Both the position numbers and the translations under genes were made by a program. A stretch of DNA of 53,410 bases, from positions 1 through 53,410 of IMG/VR virus record IMGVR_UViG_3300025728_000003, one strand, 5' to 3'. Below the pieces are notes generated by a model. The model was given only the letters and a program-made list of their open reading frames with translations, ran no database searches and was not told the DNA's origin. Source of the stretch: a virus. Shown here one piece after another: positions 9,760 through 28,206 of this stretch; position 1 is the first letter of the stretch; every line of letters starts with the position of its first letter.

Positions 9760-10521
9760 CTGCGGGAAACCATAAACCCGCCTACGGTTTACGCGAACAC
9801 CTCAGGCGCTTTGATCCGTCGTTCGCGCGATGATCTGGCGGATAGAGTGGTCCGCCGCTAAACCTGTTATGCATGCCGAGCCGTAACGGCCTGCCAATCA
9901 ACGATTTAGCTGCTGATTGGGTTCCGAGTCTTCGGGCACTTGTCGGTGGCGCTGGTTATTCGTTGCAGCGGATGGTGTCGATCTGCAGCTTTTTCGGCGG
10001 ATCTAGCATCGACCTGCTCATTCACTGCACCGCTATAGTCTCACCATGCGAGAAGGATTGCAACTGCCCGTGAAAAATAAATTCCTGACTTTTTGGTAAG
10101 GTTTACAGGCTGGTAACTGTTCCCTCTGTGTTACTTCAAAAGATAACAGCTGCAGCCCAGGTGGGGCGCGGCTTTCAGCAGATCTGTTCCCTTGTTCCCT
10201 CGTTTCCGGCTGCACGCAAATAACCCACACTGAATGCACGGTTGAAATAATTATTATTTTGAAAGAATCATTCTCATTTGAATAGGTGCGTAAAAAAAAA
10301 AAAAAATAGAGAGAACAAGGGAACACTTTGGCTAAAACCCTTACGTGGCATGGCTTGGCGCTGTTATTTTTTGAGGGAACAGAAAGGGAACAGTTACCAC
10401 TTTTGTGCTGTTTCATGCCATTTTCAGCGAAATAACAAAGGCCGCAAAGGATCACAAAGACACATAAGGGCGCGAAGATCGCAAAGGAATTTGCACCGAA
10501 AAATCTCTCAATCTGAGGGTG
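9760..10521. other. Long noncoding region with hairpins and a large palindrome; candidate replication origin
   Basis: About 760 bp without a convincing gene, at the divergence of late (minus) and early (plus) transcription. It holds hairpins GCGGG/CCCGC near 9766-9785 and GGCGGA/TCCGCC at 9837-9856, a TATAGT at 10035-10040 followed directly by a 17-codon reading frame without a ribosome binding site, the large palindrome at 10111-10399, a 15-base A-run (10292-10306), and CGCAAAGGA-type repeats at 10440-10490. Divergent position, AT-rich core, repeats and adjacency to the DUF3987 replication gene together suggest an origin (inference). Confidence 0.55.
10111..10399. repeat. Nested palindrome of GGGAACA/TGTTCCC repeats
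   Basis: The outer arms at 10111-10125 and 10385-10399 are 15-bp perfect inverted repeats containing TAACTGTTCCC. The inner arms at 10185-10197 (TGTTCCCTTGTTC) and 10313-10325 are 13-bp perfect inverted repeats. Both pairs centre on 10255, and between them CAAAA.ATAACAGC at 10137-10150 also matches its mirror at 10360-10373. The centre is AT-rich (ATAATTATTATTTTG). At least five GGGAACA/TGTTCCC copies are present. It looks like an iteron or cruciform element. Confidence 0.8.
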
Positions 10522-10550
10522 TTGAATTTAAATCGGGATGACGCTACAGT
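10522..10550 (+). promoter_or_regulatory. Early promoter before the first plus-strand gene
   Basis: TTGAAT (10522-10527), 17-base spacer, TACAGT (10545-10550), 30 bases before the ATG at 10581. Good match to sigma70 consensus spacing. It would drive the DUF3987 operon. Confidence 0.6.
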
Positions 10551-10580
10551 AAGGGCCGCAAACAACTGAGGATGCCAAAG

Positions 10581-10790
10581 ATGCAGGTAGAAAAATCCAT
10601 ACCGATCCCGACCAGGAAGCTCTACAAATTCGAGCGCATGGCCATCGGTGACAGCTTCTTTTTCGAAGAACTGGATGAGGTAGAGAACTGCTCAAGCTCT
10701 GCTTACTCGTATGCGAAAACCCACAAGAACGGATTCAAGATGACCCGCCGCAAGGTGGATGGCGGTTACAGGATTTGGAGGATCGCGTAG
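10581..10790 (+). CDS. Small conserved phage protein before DUF3987 gene
   Basis: 69 residues from ATG at 10581, preceded by GAGG at 9-base spacing; an upstream ATG at 10572 has no room for a ribosome binding site. Contains MQVEKSIPIP, GDSFFF, SAYSYAKTH and a C-terminal DGGYRIWRI. Similar small proteins with an A-x-x-YA motif and a basic RIWR end occur in other phage replication regions. Function unknown; the basic C-terminus hints at nucleic-acid contact. Confidence 0.7.
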   Translation: MQVEKSIPIPTRKLYKFERMAIGDSFFFEELDEVENCSSSAYSYAKTHKNGFKMTRRKVDGGYRIWRIA

Positions 10791-12352
10791 TGGATATCGA
10801 TATCAGTAACCCGCCTACTTTCGAGGCGTCGCCAGTCGATATCTACGTTGACGTTTTGCCTGATGAGGATGACTTTCATCTGGAGGCTTATGACATCGGC
10901 GTCATTGAGCAGCCTCTGGTTTCCGAGGTTCCGATCCCTGCGCCTGTCAGAAAGCAGTACAAGCCGAGAGTAAAGGCTGAGCCATTGAGTGATGCCGAAT
11001 TCATCCCGGCCATGATGGAAATTCCAGAGCGACTGTCCAATACAGTGATCGGCCGCCTAGCCAATATCGCCCATAAGAGAATTGAATTCCCGGAAGTGAG
11101 TTCATTGTTTTCATTGCTGGCAACGGCGAGCTGTTCGGTATCCATGTCCTATTCGGTTGAATATGCCACTGGCGATCCGATCTCTCTTGGTCTATATGTA
11201 ATCGTCGAGCACCCGCCTGCAACCAATAAAAGTTATCTGCTCGGGATAGGCCTTAATCCTTATCGTCTCGCCATTGAAAAGCATAATAAGCAGATCGATG
11301 GAAAGAATATTGAGATAAAAGAACGCGGCGGAAATGAGGGCGTGCAAAATCTTAAAAGAACATTTTGCCTTACGTCTGACGGCACTTCAGCATCTATCGA
11401 TGGAGCATTAACTACTTGCGCCGAAGGTAGGTTTGTAATGTCCAGCTCAGAGCAAAGCGGACTTATGTCCCTTTTCCCGGAGAGTGGGACATTTTCAAGT
11501 AACAACGATTTGCTTTTGAACGGATATTCAGGCGAATACATCGCCGGCCAGCGGGCGACACGCAAAGCATTTTCTGGAGTTGTCTTCGGCTCTATGGCTG
11601 TAATCGCGCAGCCTGGCAGCAGCAAGCGAGTGTTGACAGCATCCGGCGGCTCAGGATTGGCAGAGCGCTTCATTTATCTATCCGAGCCGGACACTATCGG
11701 GTTTCGCAAAAATGAAGGGATATACCCATCCAATGCGGAGAAGGCTCCTTTCCAAGAGGCTTGCATGAAATGTGTCGAGATATATTCCGCCAAGGTCTTG
11801 TCTGGCGCCCATCGTGAAGAGGCTGAGCGCGTCGTTATGGAGCCATCGAACCTGATACGGCTCAAGGCTTCAGCGGAGGGATACAAGATCCTGCAGGCGG
11901 CAAAGAACGCAACCGAAAGCTACCTGTATGAACTTAAATCGGCCGGCGAAATGGTCATGATGGGCTGGCTTGGCAAGATCATCACGCACGTCCTGAAGAT
12001 CGCCGGAAATTTTCATGTGATCGAATGCCACGCAAACAACTGCAAGGTTCCTGAAATCATCCCAACCTGGATTATCGAAGAGTCGATTGAGCTAGTCATG
12101 ACACTCTCCGAGCACATCAAGGAGATCATGAACGCTGCAGGCGAGTCCGGCTCCCAGGCCGAAGAGGAAACGATAATTGATATCTTGACCGACAAGTCAA
12201 TGACATTAAGGGCTCTGGCGCAGAGAGCTAAAAGTCGCAGGCCATTCCGAGCGATGCCGGCCGGTTATGCAATCGCCAGCTCTAGGATTGCGGCGATGCT
12301 GAAATCAGGAAAGCTCATCGTAAGTTCATCCGGGAAAATTGAGGTCGTATGA
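10790..12352 (+). CDS. DUF3987-type replication protein (helicase/primase-associated)
   Basis: 520 residues from GTG at 10790, chosen because GGAGG lies 8 bases upstream; it overlaps the previous stop. An acidic N-terminal about 80 residues is followed by a DUF3987-like core: IPERLSNTVIGRLANIAHKR, SLFSLLATASCSVS, LGLYVIVEHPPATNKSYLL, MSSSEQSGLMSLFP, LLLNGYSGEYIAGQRATRKA, SGLAERFIYLSEPD. Family members are replicative ATPase/helicase-like proteins of phages and prophages. The P-loop is degenerate: PPATNKS stands where GxxxxGKS is expected. The C-terminal LAQRAKSRRP..AMPAGYAIASSRIAAML region looks like a winged helix. Confidence 0.75.
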   Translation: MDIDISNPPTFEASPVDIYVDVLPDEDDFHLEAYDIGVIEQPLVSEVPIPAPVRKQYKPRVKAEPLSDAEFIPAMMEIPERLSNTVIGRLANIAHKRIEFPEVSSLFSLLATASCSVSMSYSVEYATGDPISLGLYVIVEHPPATNKSYLLGIGLNPYRLAIEKHNKQIDGKNIEIKERGGNEGVQNLKRTFCLTSDGTSASIDGALTTCAEGRFVMSSSEQSGLMSLFPESGTFSSNNDLLLNGYSGEYIAGQRATRKAFSGVVFGSMAVIAQPGSSKRVLTASGGSGLAERFIYLSEPDTIGFRKNEGIYPSNAEKAPFQEACMKCVEIYSAKVLSGAHREEAERVVMEPSNLIRLKASAEGYKILQAAKNATESYLYELKSAGEMVMMGWLGKIITHVLKIAGNFHVIECHANNCKVPEIIPTWIIEESIELVMTLSEHIKEIMNAAGESGSQAEEETIIDILTDKSMTLRALAQRAKSRRPFRAMPAGYAIASSRIAAMLKSGKLIVSSSGKIEVV

Positions 12353-12693
12353 CCATCGAAGAAGCCATTCGTAGCCAATATGGCGTGAAGATCACTGTCA
12401 TGCCCCCAGATCTTAAATTGAGGAAGTTCAAGATCGATCAATTGCGCAATGGTTTTCTGATGAAAGATACGAATTCTGGTGTTTTTGGTTCATTTATTGA
12501 CGGTGAAGCGTTCATTTTCAATGAATTCGGCATCACTTCTCATAAGTTAGAGCACCAAGACCACAAAGAAATATGTGCAGAATGGCTGATCTGGGAGATT
12601 GCCAGGTCGATGCTTGAGCGCGGTGAAAAGTTGAGCATTATCGATGGCGAGCGATTGGCGCTCGCGGTGCAGAGATTGGAGGATTGGCTATGA
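12349..12693 (+). CDS. Small protein with a primase-N-terminus-like motif
   Basis: 114 residues, overlapping the DUF3987 gene by 4 bases. PPDLKLRKFKIDQLRNGFLM and VFGSFIDG resemble the N-terminal substrate motif of phage and plasmid primases (typically P-DG..-hRF....-NGWY and AGVFGCWKTG), here as a free-standing small protein. The helical C-terminus (AEWLIWEIARSMLERG) is less conserved. Possibly a split-off primase domain that works with the DUF3987 protein; moderate certainty. Confidence 0.55.
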   Translation: MTIEEAIRSQYGVKITVMPPDLKLRKFKIDQLRNGFLMKDTNSGVFGSFIDGEAFIFNEFGITSHKLEHQDHKEICAEWLIWEIARSMLERGEKLSIIDGERLALAVQRLEDWL

Positions 12694-21530: not shown

Positions 21531-22403
21531 TCAGGCCACTTTAACTGAATACGCAGCGGGTATCAAAAATACCTCGTGGCCGTAGTCTAGGAATTCTTCG
21601 GCTAGTTCTGCTGAGCAGCCTATGTGAGAAAATCTATCTCTCTGCTTGTCTGCCATCCATTTGCAGTTCTCGAAGCTGAGCGAACAGATTATCCGGGCGC
21701 AACCCTTCCGCATCCACCACAGTCTCCATGCCTCGGCATAGTCCATGGTCAGGATTACGGTTCCATCATGCGCGCCAACCGGCTCAATGGTTGCGACGGC
21801 ACCATAGCTGATGCCGCCAGCCGAATACTTGATTGAGCCATCAGTCTGGATCGCCGCCAGGTTGACCAGTTCGCCGGCCTGATTATAGAGATCGACGATC
21901 AGCGATCCCTTCAGGGTTTTAATGGTGTCGTGTGGAGCGGTGTTGTTTCTAAGCAGGTGCATGTGAGTTTCAGATTCCGTGCATTTGGCGAGCAGCATTT
22001 TGGCTTGTTCGGGGTTTTCGGTGTGGTCGGATGGGTATACCAGTTTGGCGGCAACCTTTGTGGCGGCCACCACACGGTACTGGTCTAGCTGTTCTTTTGG
22101 TGTGACATTGAGGAAGTCGGCAACTGCATTGACCATCTGCGGGAAAGTCCAATGATTGACCTCCATCAGCAGGTGTTCTGGGCTCGATACGCAATTGCCG
22201 TCACCAGAGTTTCCGCAACCATGTCGGCAGTAATTCATGATGCGGCCGGCACGCTCGAAGAAATGGGCGCGATCATTGCCGCCGCAAAGCACGCATGGGC
22301 CGTTGCGATTGATCTTGCGTAGCTCTACGCCCATTGCCGGCAAGATGGCATCCCAAAGCCCGTTCGCGGCTTGAGAGACGTCTTTGTAGTCGATGCAGGC
22401 CAT
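21531..22403 (-). CDS. Primase-like zinc protein with degenerate TOPRIM-like domain
   Basis: 290 residues. The zinc motif CVLCGGNDRAHFF with CRHGCGNSGDGNC (residues 37-71) matches the zinc-binding domain of phage and P4-type primases. The C-terminal part (about 205-285) is laid out like a TOPRIM domain (VILTMDYAEAWRLW, then EVFLIPAAYS). However, the usual catalytic EG is replaced by DY and no DxD motif is visible, so polymerase activity is doubtful. It may prime replication with the DUF3987 protein or act as a binding remnant. Last gene of a three-gene minus operon. Confidence 0.65.
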   Translation of the reverse strand: MACIDYKDVSQAANGLWDAILPAMGVELRKINRNGPCVLCGGNDRAHFFERAGRIMNYCRHGCGNSGDGNCVSSPEHLLMEVNHWTFPQMVNAVADFLNVTPKEQLDQYRVVAATKVAAKLVYPSDHTENPEQAKMLLAKCTESETHMHLLRNNTAPHDTIKTLKGSLIVDLYNQAGELVNLAAIQTDGSIKYSAGGISYGAVATIEPVGAHDGTVILTMDYAEAWRLWWMRKGCARIICSLSFENCKWMADKQRDRFSHIGCSAELAEEFLDYGHEVFLIPAAYSVKVA

Positions 22404-24069: not shown

Positions 24070-24236
24070 CGGCCAAGGTATCCAATGTCGATGCGCTCAA
24101 GCTTCTGCACAATGCGCTGAATAGCCCATTCAAGGGTGGCCGAGTGTGGGCCGCCTATGAAAAGAAATGCGTGATCGCAATGCTCGACACGCTCAAGCAA
24201 GTAATCGACCAGATTGAAAAGGATTCTTCCAAATGA
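24066..24236 (+). CDS. Hypothetical small helical protein
   Basis: 56 residues between the zinc protein and ParB, ATGA-coupled on both sides. VSNVDALKLLHNALNSPFKG and a second helix CVIAMLDTLKQVIDQIEKD. No family recognised. Confidence 0.6.
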   Translation: MTAKVSNVDALKLLHNALNSPFKGGRVWAAYEKKCVIAMLDTLKQVIDQIEKDSSK

Positions 24237-25171
24237 CCGCCCCACAACAACTCTTCACCATGAACAAACTAGTCGCCGAAAAAGTAGTAGGTCGCGGCGA
24301 CCTGTTCAAAGTCCGCATTGACTCATTGGTCATCGTCGAGGACTTCAATGAGTCGCGCAAATACAACGATCCCCAAGAACTGCGCGCTCACATCGACGGT
24401 ATGAAGTCCTTCGTTCGTGCTGGCGGTACGTTGCCGGCAATAGAGGTGTTCGTTAATCCGGAGACTGGCGCGACCGAGGTTGTTGAGGGTCATTGCCGGA
24501 CTTCATGTTTCCGTGAGCTACTGGCCGAAGATTTCACTATAGACGGAAAGCCCTTCACGCACATTCCTGCGATTCCGTTCAAGGGTTCGATGGCGCAGCG
24601 TCGGGCCAGGATCGTGACCAGCAACAGTCAGTTGCCGCTTGCCAAGTTGGGCGAGGCGATGGTCTACCTGGCGATGCGTGATATTGACGGGCTGAGTCCT
24701 GCTGAGATCGCCACTGAAACCCGCAAATCTCGCGGCCACATTGATCAGATGCTGTTGCTGGCGACTGCCGATGACGATGTGCGCAAGGCTATTATCGACG
24801 GTGTAATCACGCCAACCGAAAGCGTGCACATCATTCGCAAGCATGGTGACGGTGCTGCTCAGGAGATTGAGCGCCTGAAGGAAGTGGCTGCTGAGTCAGG
24901 CAAAGACAAGATTACTGGAGCCGTTCGCAAGAAGGCTGCGGTCAGTAAGCGGGAATGGCCGGTTAGCTTGGTGTCGGCCGCTAGATCCATCAAGAAAGAC
25001 TTCGGCGACCTAACAGTTCAAGGGATAATTCTCGGTCAGGCTCCAGAGAAAATCGAAGTCAGCACATGGGCTATCGCTGAATTGCTTATGGCGATCTCGA
25101 ATATTCCGGAAGACGAAGAGCCTATCCAGGTTGATGATCGTCAGATTGATATGCTGGAGGGTGAGGAATGA
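24233..25171 (+). CDS. ParB-like nuclease/partition domain protein
   Basis: 312 residues. N-terminal ParB/Srx-type domain with FNESRKYNDPQELRAHID and the ParB box variant EGHCRTSCFREL (85-96, normally GHRR). It is followed by a helix-turn-helix LSPAEIATETRKSRGHIDQM (about 155-174) and an alpha-helical centre to the C-terminus. Phage ParB-like proteins bind or nick DNA and may hydrolyse CTP. No ParA-type partner gene is seen, so a plasmid-partition role is not implied. Sits in the replication operon just before the helicase. Confidence 0.85.
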   Translation: MTAPQQLFTMNKLVAEKVVGRGDLFKVRIDSLVIVEDFNESRKYNDPQELRAHIDGMKSFVRAGGTLPAIEVFVNPETGATEVVEGHCRTSCFRELLAEDFTIDGKPFTHIPAIPFKGSMAQRRARIVTSNSQLPLAKLGEAMVYLAMRDIDGLSPAEIATETRKSRGHIDQMLLLATADDDVRKAIIDGVITPTESVHIIRKHGDGAAQEIERLKEVAAESGKDKITGAVRKKAAVSKREWPVSLVSAARSIKKDFGDLTVQGIILGQAPEKIEVSTWAIAELLMAISNIPEDEEPIQVDDRQIDMLEGEE

Positions 25172-25335: not shown

Positions 25336-25423
25336 TTCCATCCGCTACTCACTAATAATGCACGCGGCCAGCCTGGTCGCGATGCTCATAATCTTCGAGG
25401 GGATTCGATTGTGGCATTACTAG
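25319..25423 (+). CDS. 34-residue membrane peptide
   Basis: Frame MRLLLNSIRYSLIMHAASLV continuing MLIIFEGIRLWHY. One probable helix. It overlaps the preceding gene by 17 bases and the helicase GTG start by 13, in a different frame from each. Contains the helicase ribosome binding site GAGGGG within its own coding sequence. Confidence 0.4.
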   Translation: MRLLLNSIRYSLIMHAASLVAMLIIFEGIRLWHY

Positions 25424-28206
25424 GATTTCAGAGGCCGGTAGTTGCCGCATGCATGAAGCATGTTCGCACTAAGCAATCAATTGAATTTGAGGGGCTCAGC
25501 ATTCACCCACCTTTATGCGTGACCGCTTCTGTATCTTCCGGGAAAAGTCTCATGATTTCCCACCTGGCAGAAGCTGTTCATTCAGCGGGAGTCAGCAAGG
25601 GCAATCGTGTCAGAGTTATGGTGATGGCTAGGGCTGGAATTCTTGTTGAGCAGGATAGCGAGGCTGCATGGTCGATTGATTTGAAGAATTCCGTTTATTC
25701 GGCTTCAGCTTTCGGCGGCCGAAAATCTCTGTATTACGACGTCGTGTTCTGCTCTGAGGGCACAATAGCAAGGGCCCTAGATGTTCGTTTTGCAGCCGAT
25801 AAGCCATGGATCCCTGACATGGTCATCATTGATGAATGCTTCCGTGCGGGGACGCTAATCGATGGCCTGGCGATTGAGAATATCAGCACAGGCGACATGG
25901 TGTGGTCATTCAATCATGCCAATGGTAAAATGGAGAGGCGCCGAGTTGTTCAGACCTTTAAGTCTAGACCTTCTCAGCTTTGCACGGTAAAGCTTGAGTC
26001 TGGCGAGTCAATCGTCTGCACTCAAGGTCATCCATTTTACGTTCCGGGAGAGGGATATGTTGCAGCCGCATCACTCAAGAAAGGCGCCAATGTCGCACAA
26101 ATGCACAATGTGCGAGAACGAAGTATTTCTAGAGAAACCCCATCAAAGGCAGGCATTCAATCAGACCGGGAGATGCTATTGCTCAAGGGTATGCTCGGGA
26201 AAGTACAAGGCAATAATTTGCGGCCAAATCGTTTCGGAGACCAACAAAAAATATGCATCGGCACGAATGAAACTGAAGAACCCGATGCACAAGGAAGAGA
26301 ACAGAACAAAGGTTTCGGAGACGTTGAAGTCGATGGGTCATCGCCCTCCAGTGAGAGGTGGAAATGGAAAATCTCACCCTGTTCTACAGATAGTGATTTT
26401 CGATCTTCTGGAGGCGTCGGGGCATTCGCCACAAATGGAGTTTGTGGTTCCTACCAAGATGGGAAAATTCAGCGGATGGCCGCTCCATTACAAGCTGGAT
26501 GTATCCATTCCGCCACTGAAACTCTGCCTGGAGTTGGACGGAAAGAGCCACGGAACTCTGAAGCGGAAGGCGCAGGATGCGAGGAAAGACCAATTCTTGA
26601 TTTCTCAAGGGTGGACAGTGTTGAGATTCACCAACGAACGGATGATGGGGAGTTCGGAGGAATGCTTCCAGGAGGTTTTGTCTACAATTTCGAGGTTGAA
26701 GGAAACCACAACTATTTCGCGGATGGAGTCCTAGTTCACAACTGCCACCAAGTGCCATGGGATGAGCCTGAAAGCCAGGCCATGAAGACGTTGCTGCACT
26801 TCTATCGTCTTCGCCCGCATCTTCGTGTAATCGGCATGACAGGCTCGCCTTTTAGGGGCATTGATTCAATCATTGGACCGTTCTGGCAGAAGTTCGCCTC
26901 CATTGAACCTGATGATCCCTTCTATCCGGAAGGTGGCGTAGGCAATGGCGTGATCAGCACGGAAGCCATGCTTGACGGCGGCTGGATCGTAGGGCCGCAA
27001 TTTGGCGTACCCATCGCACATGGGTACGATTTTAGTTCTGTCGATTGGAATGTCGATGACGAAAGAGAGTTGAACAGACTCACGGAATCAGAGCAGTTGC
27101 TTGCCGAGATTCTTCGCGAAGTGATCGCTATTTCCAGTAAGCGCAAAGGCGTCCTGATCTTCGCTTCGACCAAGCGTCATGCGAGAAATATCGCGAAAAT
27201 GCTGGTTATGCTTGGAGTGCCAGAAGAGTGGGTTGGCCTAGTGGTCGATTCGACTCCGGAGAAAGACAAGACGCGCATCCTGAAAGCAGCTCAGACTGGC
27301 GAGATAAAGTTCACAGTAAATGTCGGTGTCCTGACCACGGGAATCAACGTGCCATGGTGGGACACCCTTTGTTTCCTAAGGCCGATTGGGACATTGACAC
27401 TGCTAACCCAGGCTATCGGTCGCGTACTGCGCCTCCTGATTGGCCCCGATGAAATACCCATGATCGAGCGCGATGCACTGACCGCCGAAGAGCGCAAAGA
27501 CCTGATCGCCGCGAGTGATAAACCAGACGCCCTGATCTTGGACTTTGCCGGCGTAATGGATCGCCTCGGCAAACTCTACGAAAACCCAGTACTAGAACAA
27601 GCCGAACTCGAGCGCGCCAAAAAGCAACACGAAACAATCCTGTGCCCAGAATGCGGCGAAGAGAACTCAATGCATGCCAGGCGGTGCATTGCTACGGATC
27701 GAAATACGAAGAAGCGCTGCGAGCATTTCTGGTCGTTTCGGTTGTGTCCGAATTGCGGCGAGAAAAACGATGTGGTTGCGCGCCAATGCCGCAATCAGGA
27801 GTGCGCTGCCGAGTTGATAGATCCCAATGAAAAACTGAGCAAGACCCACTTCAAGGATGCTGAGGCGATACCAGTTGTCAGCATGGATCTGAGCTGCGGT
27901 CCGGGCGGTGCACTGTACGTCAAATGGGAGTTGTCAGATGGCCGCAAGCCAATCGAGATCTACTACCCGAACGCCTCCAAGAATCCGCTGGTGACAACGC
28001 GAGCATGGTTCAATTCATTCTGCAAAGAGCATGTCGAAAGCGAGAAGGGGCAATTCATGGCGAGACGCATGAAGAACACCCAGGCAGTGGCTATGAAGAC
28101 GATATTCAGGGTGCCGACGCATATTATTGCCAGGCAGAACGACAAGGGGAAATGGACCGTGGGTAAGCGGTATTTTGCGGTTGAGCGGGTGGAGGAGATG
28201 GTATGA
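25411..28206 (+). CDS. SF2 DECH-box helicase precursor interrupted by an intein
   Basis: 931-codon precursor from GTG at 25411 (GAGGGG 8 bases upstream). Motif I is ASVSSGKS (39-46) and motif II begins VIIDE at 138-142. Residues 143-444 are an intein, and the sequence resumes CHQVPWDEP at 445, so splicing restores DECHQ. Motif III-like GMTGSP and motif VI QAIGRVLRL follow. A C-terminal zinc part starts near residue 743 (CPECGEEN, CPNCGEKN, CRNQEC). The mature protein would be 629 residues. A replication or recombination DNA helicase, as in T5 D10 or T4 UvsW-like enzymes (known DECH helicases). Confidence 0.9.
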   Translation: MALLGFQRPVVAACMKHVRTKQSIEFEGLSIHPPLCVTASVSSGKSLMISHLAEAVHSAGVSKGNRVRVMVMARAGILVEQDSEAAWSIDLKNSVYSASAFGGRKSLYYDVVFCSEGTIARALDVRFAADKPWIPDMVIIDECFRAGTLIDGLAIENISTGDMVWSFNHANGKMERRRVVQTFKSRPSQLCTVKLESGESIVCTQGHPFYVPGEGYVAAASLKKGANVAQMHNVRERSISRETPSKAGIQSDREMLLLKGMLGKVQGNNLRPNRFGDQQKICIGTNETEEPDAQGREQNKGFGDVEVDGSSPSSERWKWKISPCSTDSDFRSSGGVGAFATNGVCGSYQDGKIQRMAAPLQAGCIHSATETLPGVGRKEPRNSEAEGAGCEERPILDFSRVDSVEIHQRTDDGEFGGMLPGGFVYNFEVEGNHNYFADGVLVHNCHQVPWDEPESQAMKTLLHFYRLRPHLRVIGMTGSPFRGIDSIIGPFWQKFASIEPDDPFYPEGGVGNGVISTEAMLDGGWIVGPQFGVPIAHGYDFSSVDWNVDDERELNRLTESEQLLAEILREVIAISSKRKGVLIFASTKRHARNIAKMLVMLGVPEEWVGLVVDSTPEKDKTRILKAAQTGEIKFTVNVGVLTTGINVPWWDTLCFLRPIGTLTLLTQAIGRVLRLLIGPDEIPMIERDALTAEERKDLIAASDKPDALILDFAGVMDRLGKLYENPVLEQAELERAKKQHETILCPECGEENSMHARRCIATDRNTKKRCEHFWSFRLCPNCGEKNDVVARQCRNQECAAELIDPNEKLSKTHFKDAEAIPVVSMDLSCGPGGALYVKWELSDGRKPIEIYYPNASKNPLVTTRAWFNSFCKEHVESEKGQFMARRMKNTQAVAMKTIFRVPTHIIARQNDKGKWTVGKRYFAVERVEEMV
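25837..26742 (+). mobile_element. Intein inside helicase motif II, carrying a nested endonuclease gene in another frame
   Basis: 302 residues. Splicing block A starts with the Cys1 nucleophile: CFRAGTLIDGLAIENISTGD. Block B is CTQGHPFYV with the conserved Thr..His. The C-terminal blocks NFEVEGNHNYFADGVLVHN end in the His-Asn pair followed by Cys+1 (codon 26743). All residues needed for class 1 splicing are present. Between about residues 227 and 420 the intein frame has no LAGLIDADG or HNH motif and a Ser/Gly/Glu/Arg-rich composition. That stretch is occupied in the +1 frame by the endonuclease gene at 26090-26734. Confidence 0.93.
26090..26734 (+). CDS. Homing endonuclease, Vsr/EDxHD type, nested out of frame in the intein
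   Basis: 214 residues, +1 frame relative to the helicase. ATG at 26090 with AGAAAGG 5 bases upstream; stop TAG at 26732-26734, 8 bases before the intein ends. Residues 5-35 form a zinc finger (CTMC ... RCYCSRVC). Residues 54-84 (RMKLKNPMHKEENRTKVSET) resemble a NUMOD3-like DNA-binding repeat. Residues 133-181 are a Vsr/DUF559-like nuclease core: HYKLDVSI, CLELDGKSH (E148, D150, H154), DARKDQFLISQGWTVLRFTN. Codons in this frame look like normal phage codons while the overlapping intein frame is rich in AGA, AGG, CGA and GGA, so this is the constrained frame. Probably cuts intein-less helicase alleles to spread the intein (inference). Confidence 0.85.
   Translation: MSHKCTMCENEVFLEKPHQRQAFNQTGRCYCSRVCSGKYKAIICGQIVSETNKKYASARMKLKNPMHKEENRTKVSETLKSMGHRPPVRGGNGKSHPVLQIVIFDLLEASGHSPQMEFVVPTKMGKFSGWPLHYKLDVSIPPLKLCLELDGKSHGTLKRKAQDARKDQFLISQGWTVLRFTNERMMGSSEECFQEVLSTISRLKETTTISRMES

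Follow-up and report, generated by a model that had tools for sequence, protein, structure and literature searches.

The DNA analysed here, a phage contig of 53,410 nucleotides (the window), carries a mirror-symmetric array of iterons at 10111–10399. On the evidence of its sequence and of its conservation among relatives, this array is probably (roughly three chances in four) the bidirectional replication origin of the phage, served by a helicase that would load itself. The genes of the window include terminase, tail and lysis genes. The two ends of the contig (1–127 and 53284–53410) are identical over 127 bp, which makes it probable that the assembly is complete and closes into a circle. No match to the window at the DNA level was found in the phage collection.

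The array is an ungapped inverted repeat whose arms of 91 nt (10111–10201 and 10309–10399) are 74% complementary about a centre at 10255. Its net symmetric score is 43, compared to 13–16 for the best palindrome in each of 15 Markov-shuffled genomes and 14 for the runner-up anywhere else in the window. An earlier note on this DNA had described perfect inverted repeats of 15 bp and 13 bp with a shared centre at 10255, an AT-rich middle, and a position at the divergence of early and late transcription. Both repeats were confirmed on that centre (15 bp, 10111–10125 and 10385–10399; 13 bp, 10185–10197 and 10313–10325), the array scoring far beyond the shuffles; the GC content within 40 bp of the centre is 32%, compared to 53% for the window; and the array lies between leftward terminase genes on one side and rightward early genes on the other. 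The note had characterised the array as GGGAACA repeats. Exact copies of this word are present, with six of the eight occurrences of GGGAACA/TGTTCCC in the 53 kb found inside the 290-bp array, but the label omits the degenerate mirrored copies that complete the pattern.

Five sites are recognisable in each arm of the window, some of them degenerate, and the window has three mirror pairs, more than expected of randomly placed sites (0.001). In the left arm, exact copies of TGTTCCC are found on the + strand at 10118–10124 (outer, offset −134), 10185–10191 (inner, −67) and 10193–10199 (inner, −59). A degenerate outer copy, TGTTACT (10129–10135, + strand, −123), was identified by symmetry alignment as the mirror of the exact copy at 10375–10381, and a reversed degenerate copy, GATAACA (10142–10148, − strand, −110), was identified by alignment as the mirror of 10362–10368; relatives carry GAGCACA or similar at the place of this reversed site. 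The right arm has exact copies of GGGAACA on the − strand at 10319–10325 (inner, +67), 10375–10381 (outer, +123) and 10386–10392 (outer, +134), along with an inner GAGAACA (10311–10317, − strand, +59) and a reversed degenerate TGTTATT (10362–10368, + strand, +110) placed by symmetry alignment. Between the arms lies an AT-rich core (10215–10306), a candidate DNA unwinding element whose right end contains a long A tract.

An operon shared with the relatives follows the array on the + strand. A sigma70-like early-operon promoter lies at 10523–10551 (TTGAAT-N17-TACAGT, an 8/12 match), and many relatives have a better sigma70-like match, mostly 9–10/12, at the same place. The first gene (10572–10790) encodes a 72-aa protein with a predicted beta-alpha-beta-beta fold, and is found upstream of the DUF3987 gene in nearly all array-bearing loci searched. 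Its matches are to other uncharacterised phage proteins only, and comparison with solved structures gave nothing above noise (best Z ~5). The second gene (10775–12352) encodes the DUF3987 protein, identified by Pfam and a structure model and proposed here to be an iteron-binding initiator helicase, and the third (12349–12693) encodes a 114-aa protein and stands directly after the DUF3987 gene in the relatives searched. Features of iteron-type origins are thus found together at this locus: clustered copies of a short word, an AT-rich element beside them, and an adjacent gene for a putative initiator, the DUF3987 gene, which always follows the array. The detrended cumulative GC skew, a check suggested in the earlier note, does reach its minimum inside the array, at 10239, but this point coincides with the switch in gene direction, a confounding effect that precludes use of the skew as proof of an origin.

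Conservation of the layout also supports the origin. Viral contigs and the cultured Pseudomonas phage Amjad_SA encode proteins that share 39–63% identity with the DUF3987 product, and about 20 related phage loci have a mirror-symmetric array of 7-bp iterons approximately 450–550 bp before the DUF3987 gene. The earlier note had suggested an iteron-type origin and had proposed conservation beside homologous DUF3987 genes as a means of checking it; the array proved to be present in these relatives, which argues for its suggestion. The full plan can be written as >>>< ... >> (AT-rich core) << ... ><<<, with positions constant to within a few bp. The left arm contains three forward sites and one reversed site at offsets of about −134, −124, −114 and −100, followed by two forward sites at −57 and −48, and the right arm mirrors it. 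The symmetry of L015 is base-exact (±48, 56, 100, 114, 124 and 134), its 12 sites forming six mirror pairs, a number reached in none of 20,000 random placements. Several relatives have 7–11 recognisable sites, the maximum being 12, with six per arm in the best-kept relatives. The core is AT-richer than the locus average in every relative examined. Mirrored iterons are present even in L024, although its palindrome score falls below its own shuffle maximum. A search of the distant DUF3987 loci L041, L044, L045 and L047–L050 found no comparable inverted repeat; the inverted-repeat score of L044 was 21, compared to a shuffle maximum of 20.

The positions of the iterons are constant and their words are rewritten by lineage. 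The word is TGTTCCC in the window, TGTGCYC in its nearest relatives and in L019, L039 and L014, TGAGTGC in L015, TGAGTCT in L016, L017 and L020, and TGAGGGG in L024 and L025. The copies in one genome agree and all change together between lineages, with a mean mismatch of 0.62 bases within a locus compared to 2.5 between loci. In two of the whole contigs (G001 and G002) all exact iteron 8-mers are inside the array, and in four others nearly all are at the array. This agreement within genomes, rewriting between lineages and confinement of the words largely to the array imply that the sites are read by one trans-acting DNA-binding protein. Among these relatives, a single fixed architecture carries six or more iteron specificities. 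Two sets of arrays combine different words. In L026 (~2325–2600) and L028 (~2315–2600), TGAGGGG and TGTGCTA are mixed over the 12 positions, perhaps as an intermediate in iteron replacement or perhaps due to two binding proteins. In L027, L029 and L030 (~2430–2700), the words are split by orientation, all forward sites being TGCGGGC and the reversed sites GCACGTA, which reads TACGTGC on the other strand, except for two degenerate outer ones.

The model of the DUF3987 protein, of moderate confidence (mean pLDDT 64.7), has the core of an MCM-type AAA+ helicase. Every top Foldseek match was an MCM protein, and residues 89–453 aligned with the MCM structure 6mii_A (VIA Z 14.9, rmsd 3.9, 260 residues); a search of the PDB at the sequence level found no match. 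The invariant columns K152, E226, R298 and F299 would suit Walker A, Walker B and arginine-finger motifs. Beyond the AAA+ core (~89–454), the C-terminus (~460–525, pLDDT ~40–75) is modelled with three helices and two strands in winged-helix order, and we infer that this winged-helix-like domain may bind the iterons. In a 2018 survey of the primases of mobile elements, DUF3987 was predicted to act as a helicase in the replication of such elements, and C-terminal WH domains were suggested to recognise origins (PMC5862659).

We compared the divergence of the iterons with that of the proteins by means of Mantel tests, whose p-values ignore phylogeny; the correlation was 0.6 for DUF3987 and 0.41 for the 72-aa protein. 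The partial correlation was 0.49 for DUF3987 compared to 0.05 for the 72-aa protein (given the winged helix). The earlier note had named either DUF3987 or the adjacent small proteins as the binder, and of these it is DUF3987 that iteron divergence tracks better, which is not proof that it binds. Iteron divergence correlates equally strongly with the ATPase region and with the winged helix of DUF3987, so a coevolution specific to the winged helix is inseparable from that of the ATPase region in these tests.

The same comparison bears upon the most serious alternative, which is that the array is a compound operator through which a phage regulator controls the divergent or early promoters, perhaps as autoregulation by the 72-aa or DUF3987 protein, with replication starting elsewhere. 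The array does lie left of the early-operon promoter at a divergence of transcription, and the gene for the small 72-aa protein is nearly always present. However, the iterons diverge in step with DUF3987 rather than with the small protein, the array does not extend to the early promoter (~120 bp past its edge in the window), in whole contigs the iterons seldom occur elsewhere, and mirrored arrays around an AT core with long fixed spacing would be an unusual plan for an operator. We consider this reading to have a minor but real chance of being correct.

It is improbable that the array is a centromere, serving partition in a plasmid-like prophage state. Arrays of short repeats are typical of such sites and a ParB-like protein is encoded at 24233–25171, but this gene is 14 kb distant, the array has the helicase as its constant neighbour, centromeres do not usually take the form of a dyad about an AT core, and no prophage relatives were found in the contigs of GTDB genomes. 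Still less can be said for the array as a pac site, to which the small terminase would bind for packaging, and we have rejected this reading. The leftward neighbours of the array are indeed the small- and large-terminase genes, the former ~700 bp away, but terminase types swap among relatives while the array layout stays constant, and the array is not co-inherited with a cognate small terminase. A TerS match is absent from the fetched flank of L008, L010, L015–L017 and L027, where the array layout is unchanged, and the TerS proteins of L019 and L028 are 50% identical to that of the window although the iterons differ; furthermore, exact dyad symmetry is ill-suited to one-way packaging.

Equally improbable is the proposal, made in the earlier note as a cruciform, that structure matters rather than a protein-read sequence, the array working as a cruciform or a long RNA hairpin: the window array folds far better than shuffles (z −8.3), but an Rfam search of it gave no match, and L027 retains the sites although the different words of its two orientations leave it with no folding advantage over shuffles (z −0.45). 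Since L027, L029 and L030 keep the geometry of the iterons and have lost the palindromic pairing, base pairing between the arms is not the conserved constraint, and we have discarded the cruciform.

Replication from an origin at the array would begin with binding of the iterons by the winged-helix-like C-terminus of the MCM-like DUF3987 helicase. One helicase ring would assemble on each arm, in mirror orientation, the AT core would melt, and the two rings would leave in opposite directions. The forks would be completed by the primase-like phage protein encoded at 21531–22403 together with a polymerase, probably that of the host; a host polymerase is assumed because the scan, which covered part of the ORFs of the window, detected no DNA polymerase. 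A more speculative extension, which we regard as possible though doubtful, is that the DNA itself serves as a loader-free template for an MCM-like double hexamer, the six iterons per arm seating six subunits and the mirror arrangement setting the two rings head-to-head, with lineages rewriting all twelve iterons along with the helicase. The correspondence of one iteron to one subunit is weaker in the window, with its five recognisable sites per arm. Under this template reading, the mixed-word genomes (L026 and L028) and the orientation-split genomes (L027, L029 and L030) would be intermediates, and the relatives would constitute a natural series of initiator-origin specificity switching. The array family brings two questions within reach: which residues determine origin specificity, and whether loaders can be dispensed with when an MCM-type helicase assembles as a double ring on a DNA dyad.

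Our literature search turned up no description of an origin in DUF3987 phages, and we compared the array with origins of other elements. In the origin of SaPI (staphylococcal pathogenicity islands), as reportedly described by Ubeda et al. in 2007, iterons specific to each element lie in opposite orientations on either side of an AT-rich region; the window too has such opposed sets about its AT-rich core. The C-terminal domain of the SaPI Rep protein recognises the iterons, apparently as two hexamers, and the SaPI/PICI origin is next to the helicase gene (PMC7581432). The origin is downstream of a DUF927 or D5-like helicase gene in SaPI/PICI, whereas in the window it is upstream of a helicase gene of the DUF3987 family. 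Of a self-loading helicase with a C-terminal DNA-binding domain, the window shows a supported MCM-like core and a C-terminal winged helix that is seen in the model only (pLDDT as given above). The SCCmec Cch protein is MCM-like, and the C-terminal domain of Cch2 binds repeats at a putative origin (PMC7581432). The operons of SCCmec Cch (of the DUF927 family) and Cch2 resemble that of the window in pairing a small-protein gene with the gene of an MCM-like or D5-like initiator helicase, but the Cch2 site has only three direct 5-nt iterons and is without a long dyad. We know of no established relationship between the SCCmec small proteins and the 72-aa protein. Because the element is a tailed phage of 53 kb rather than a satellite or phage-inducible chromosomal island, with its candidate origin upstream of a different helicase family, we propose that the array may work like SaPI Rep-ori and SCCmec Cch/Cch2 while standing outside that island class.

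The lambda-type O-protein origin is likewise a phage origin built of iterons (PMC11447400). Its iterons are direct repeats inside the replication gene, whereas those of the window are intergenic, inverted and mirror-symmetric, so that the lambda type fits poorly. An initiator-site dyad around an AT-rich core is found in herpes simplex oriL and in the SV40 ori. In SV40 the origin is recognised by the T antigen, itself a helicase (PMC7581432). The initiators are unrelated and the viruses very different, so that these two serve as an analogy only. T1-like phages (Drexlerviridae) encode a DUF3987 helicase distant from that of the window; no comparable inverted repeat was found upstream of it, and no origin repeats were recognised in the T1-like phage TLS, a distant relative (PMC11447400).

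Several minor elements were observed at or near the arrays. The spacers of ~36–43 bp between iteron groups often hold a small dyad resembling GGCCACG-N4/5-CGTGGCC (for example at ~2455–2480 and 2625–2650 in L013), which is largely degenerate in the window and is possibly the site of a second protein. A Fur-box-like sequence is present at the core of some near relatives (L004, at ~2531 with a 16/19 match, L012 and L013); the match is at background level in most genomes, and we do not consider it a general feature of the core. In the stretch that separates array and early promoter in the window (10434–10490), CACAAAG/CTCAAA words recur every 9–10 bp, possibly as phased A-tracts; such tracts right of the array are significant only in L015 and L016 and marginally so in the window, and were rejected as a general feature. 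The helicase ORF at 25411–28206 of the window contains intein-like domains (Intein_splicing, PT-HINT). No tRNA gene was found in the window; in some relatives, genes for tRNA-Asp and tRNA-Thr lie just left of the array (L016, 2079–2155; L004, 2041–2118).
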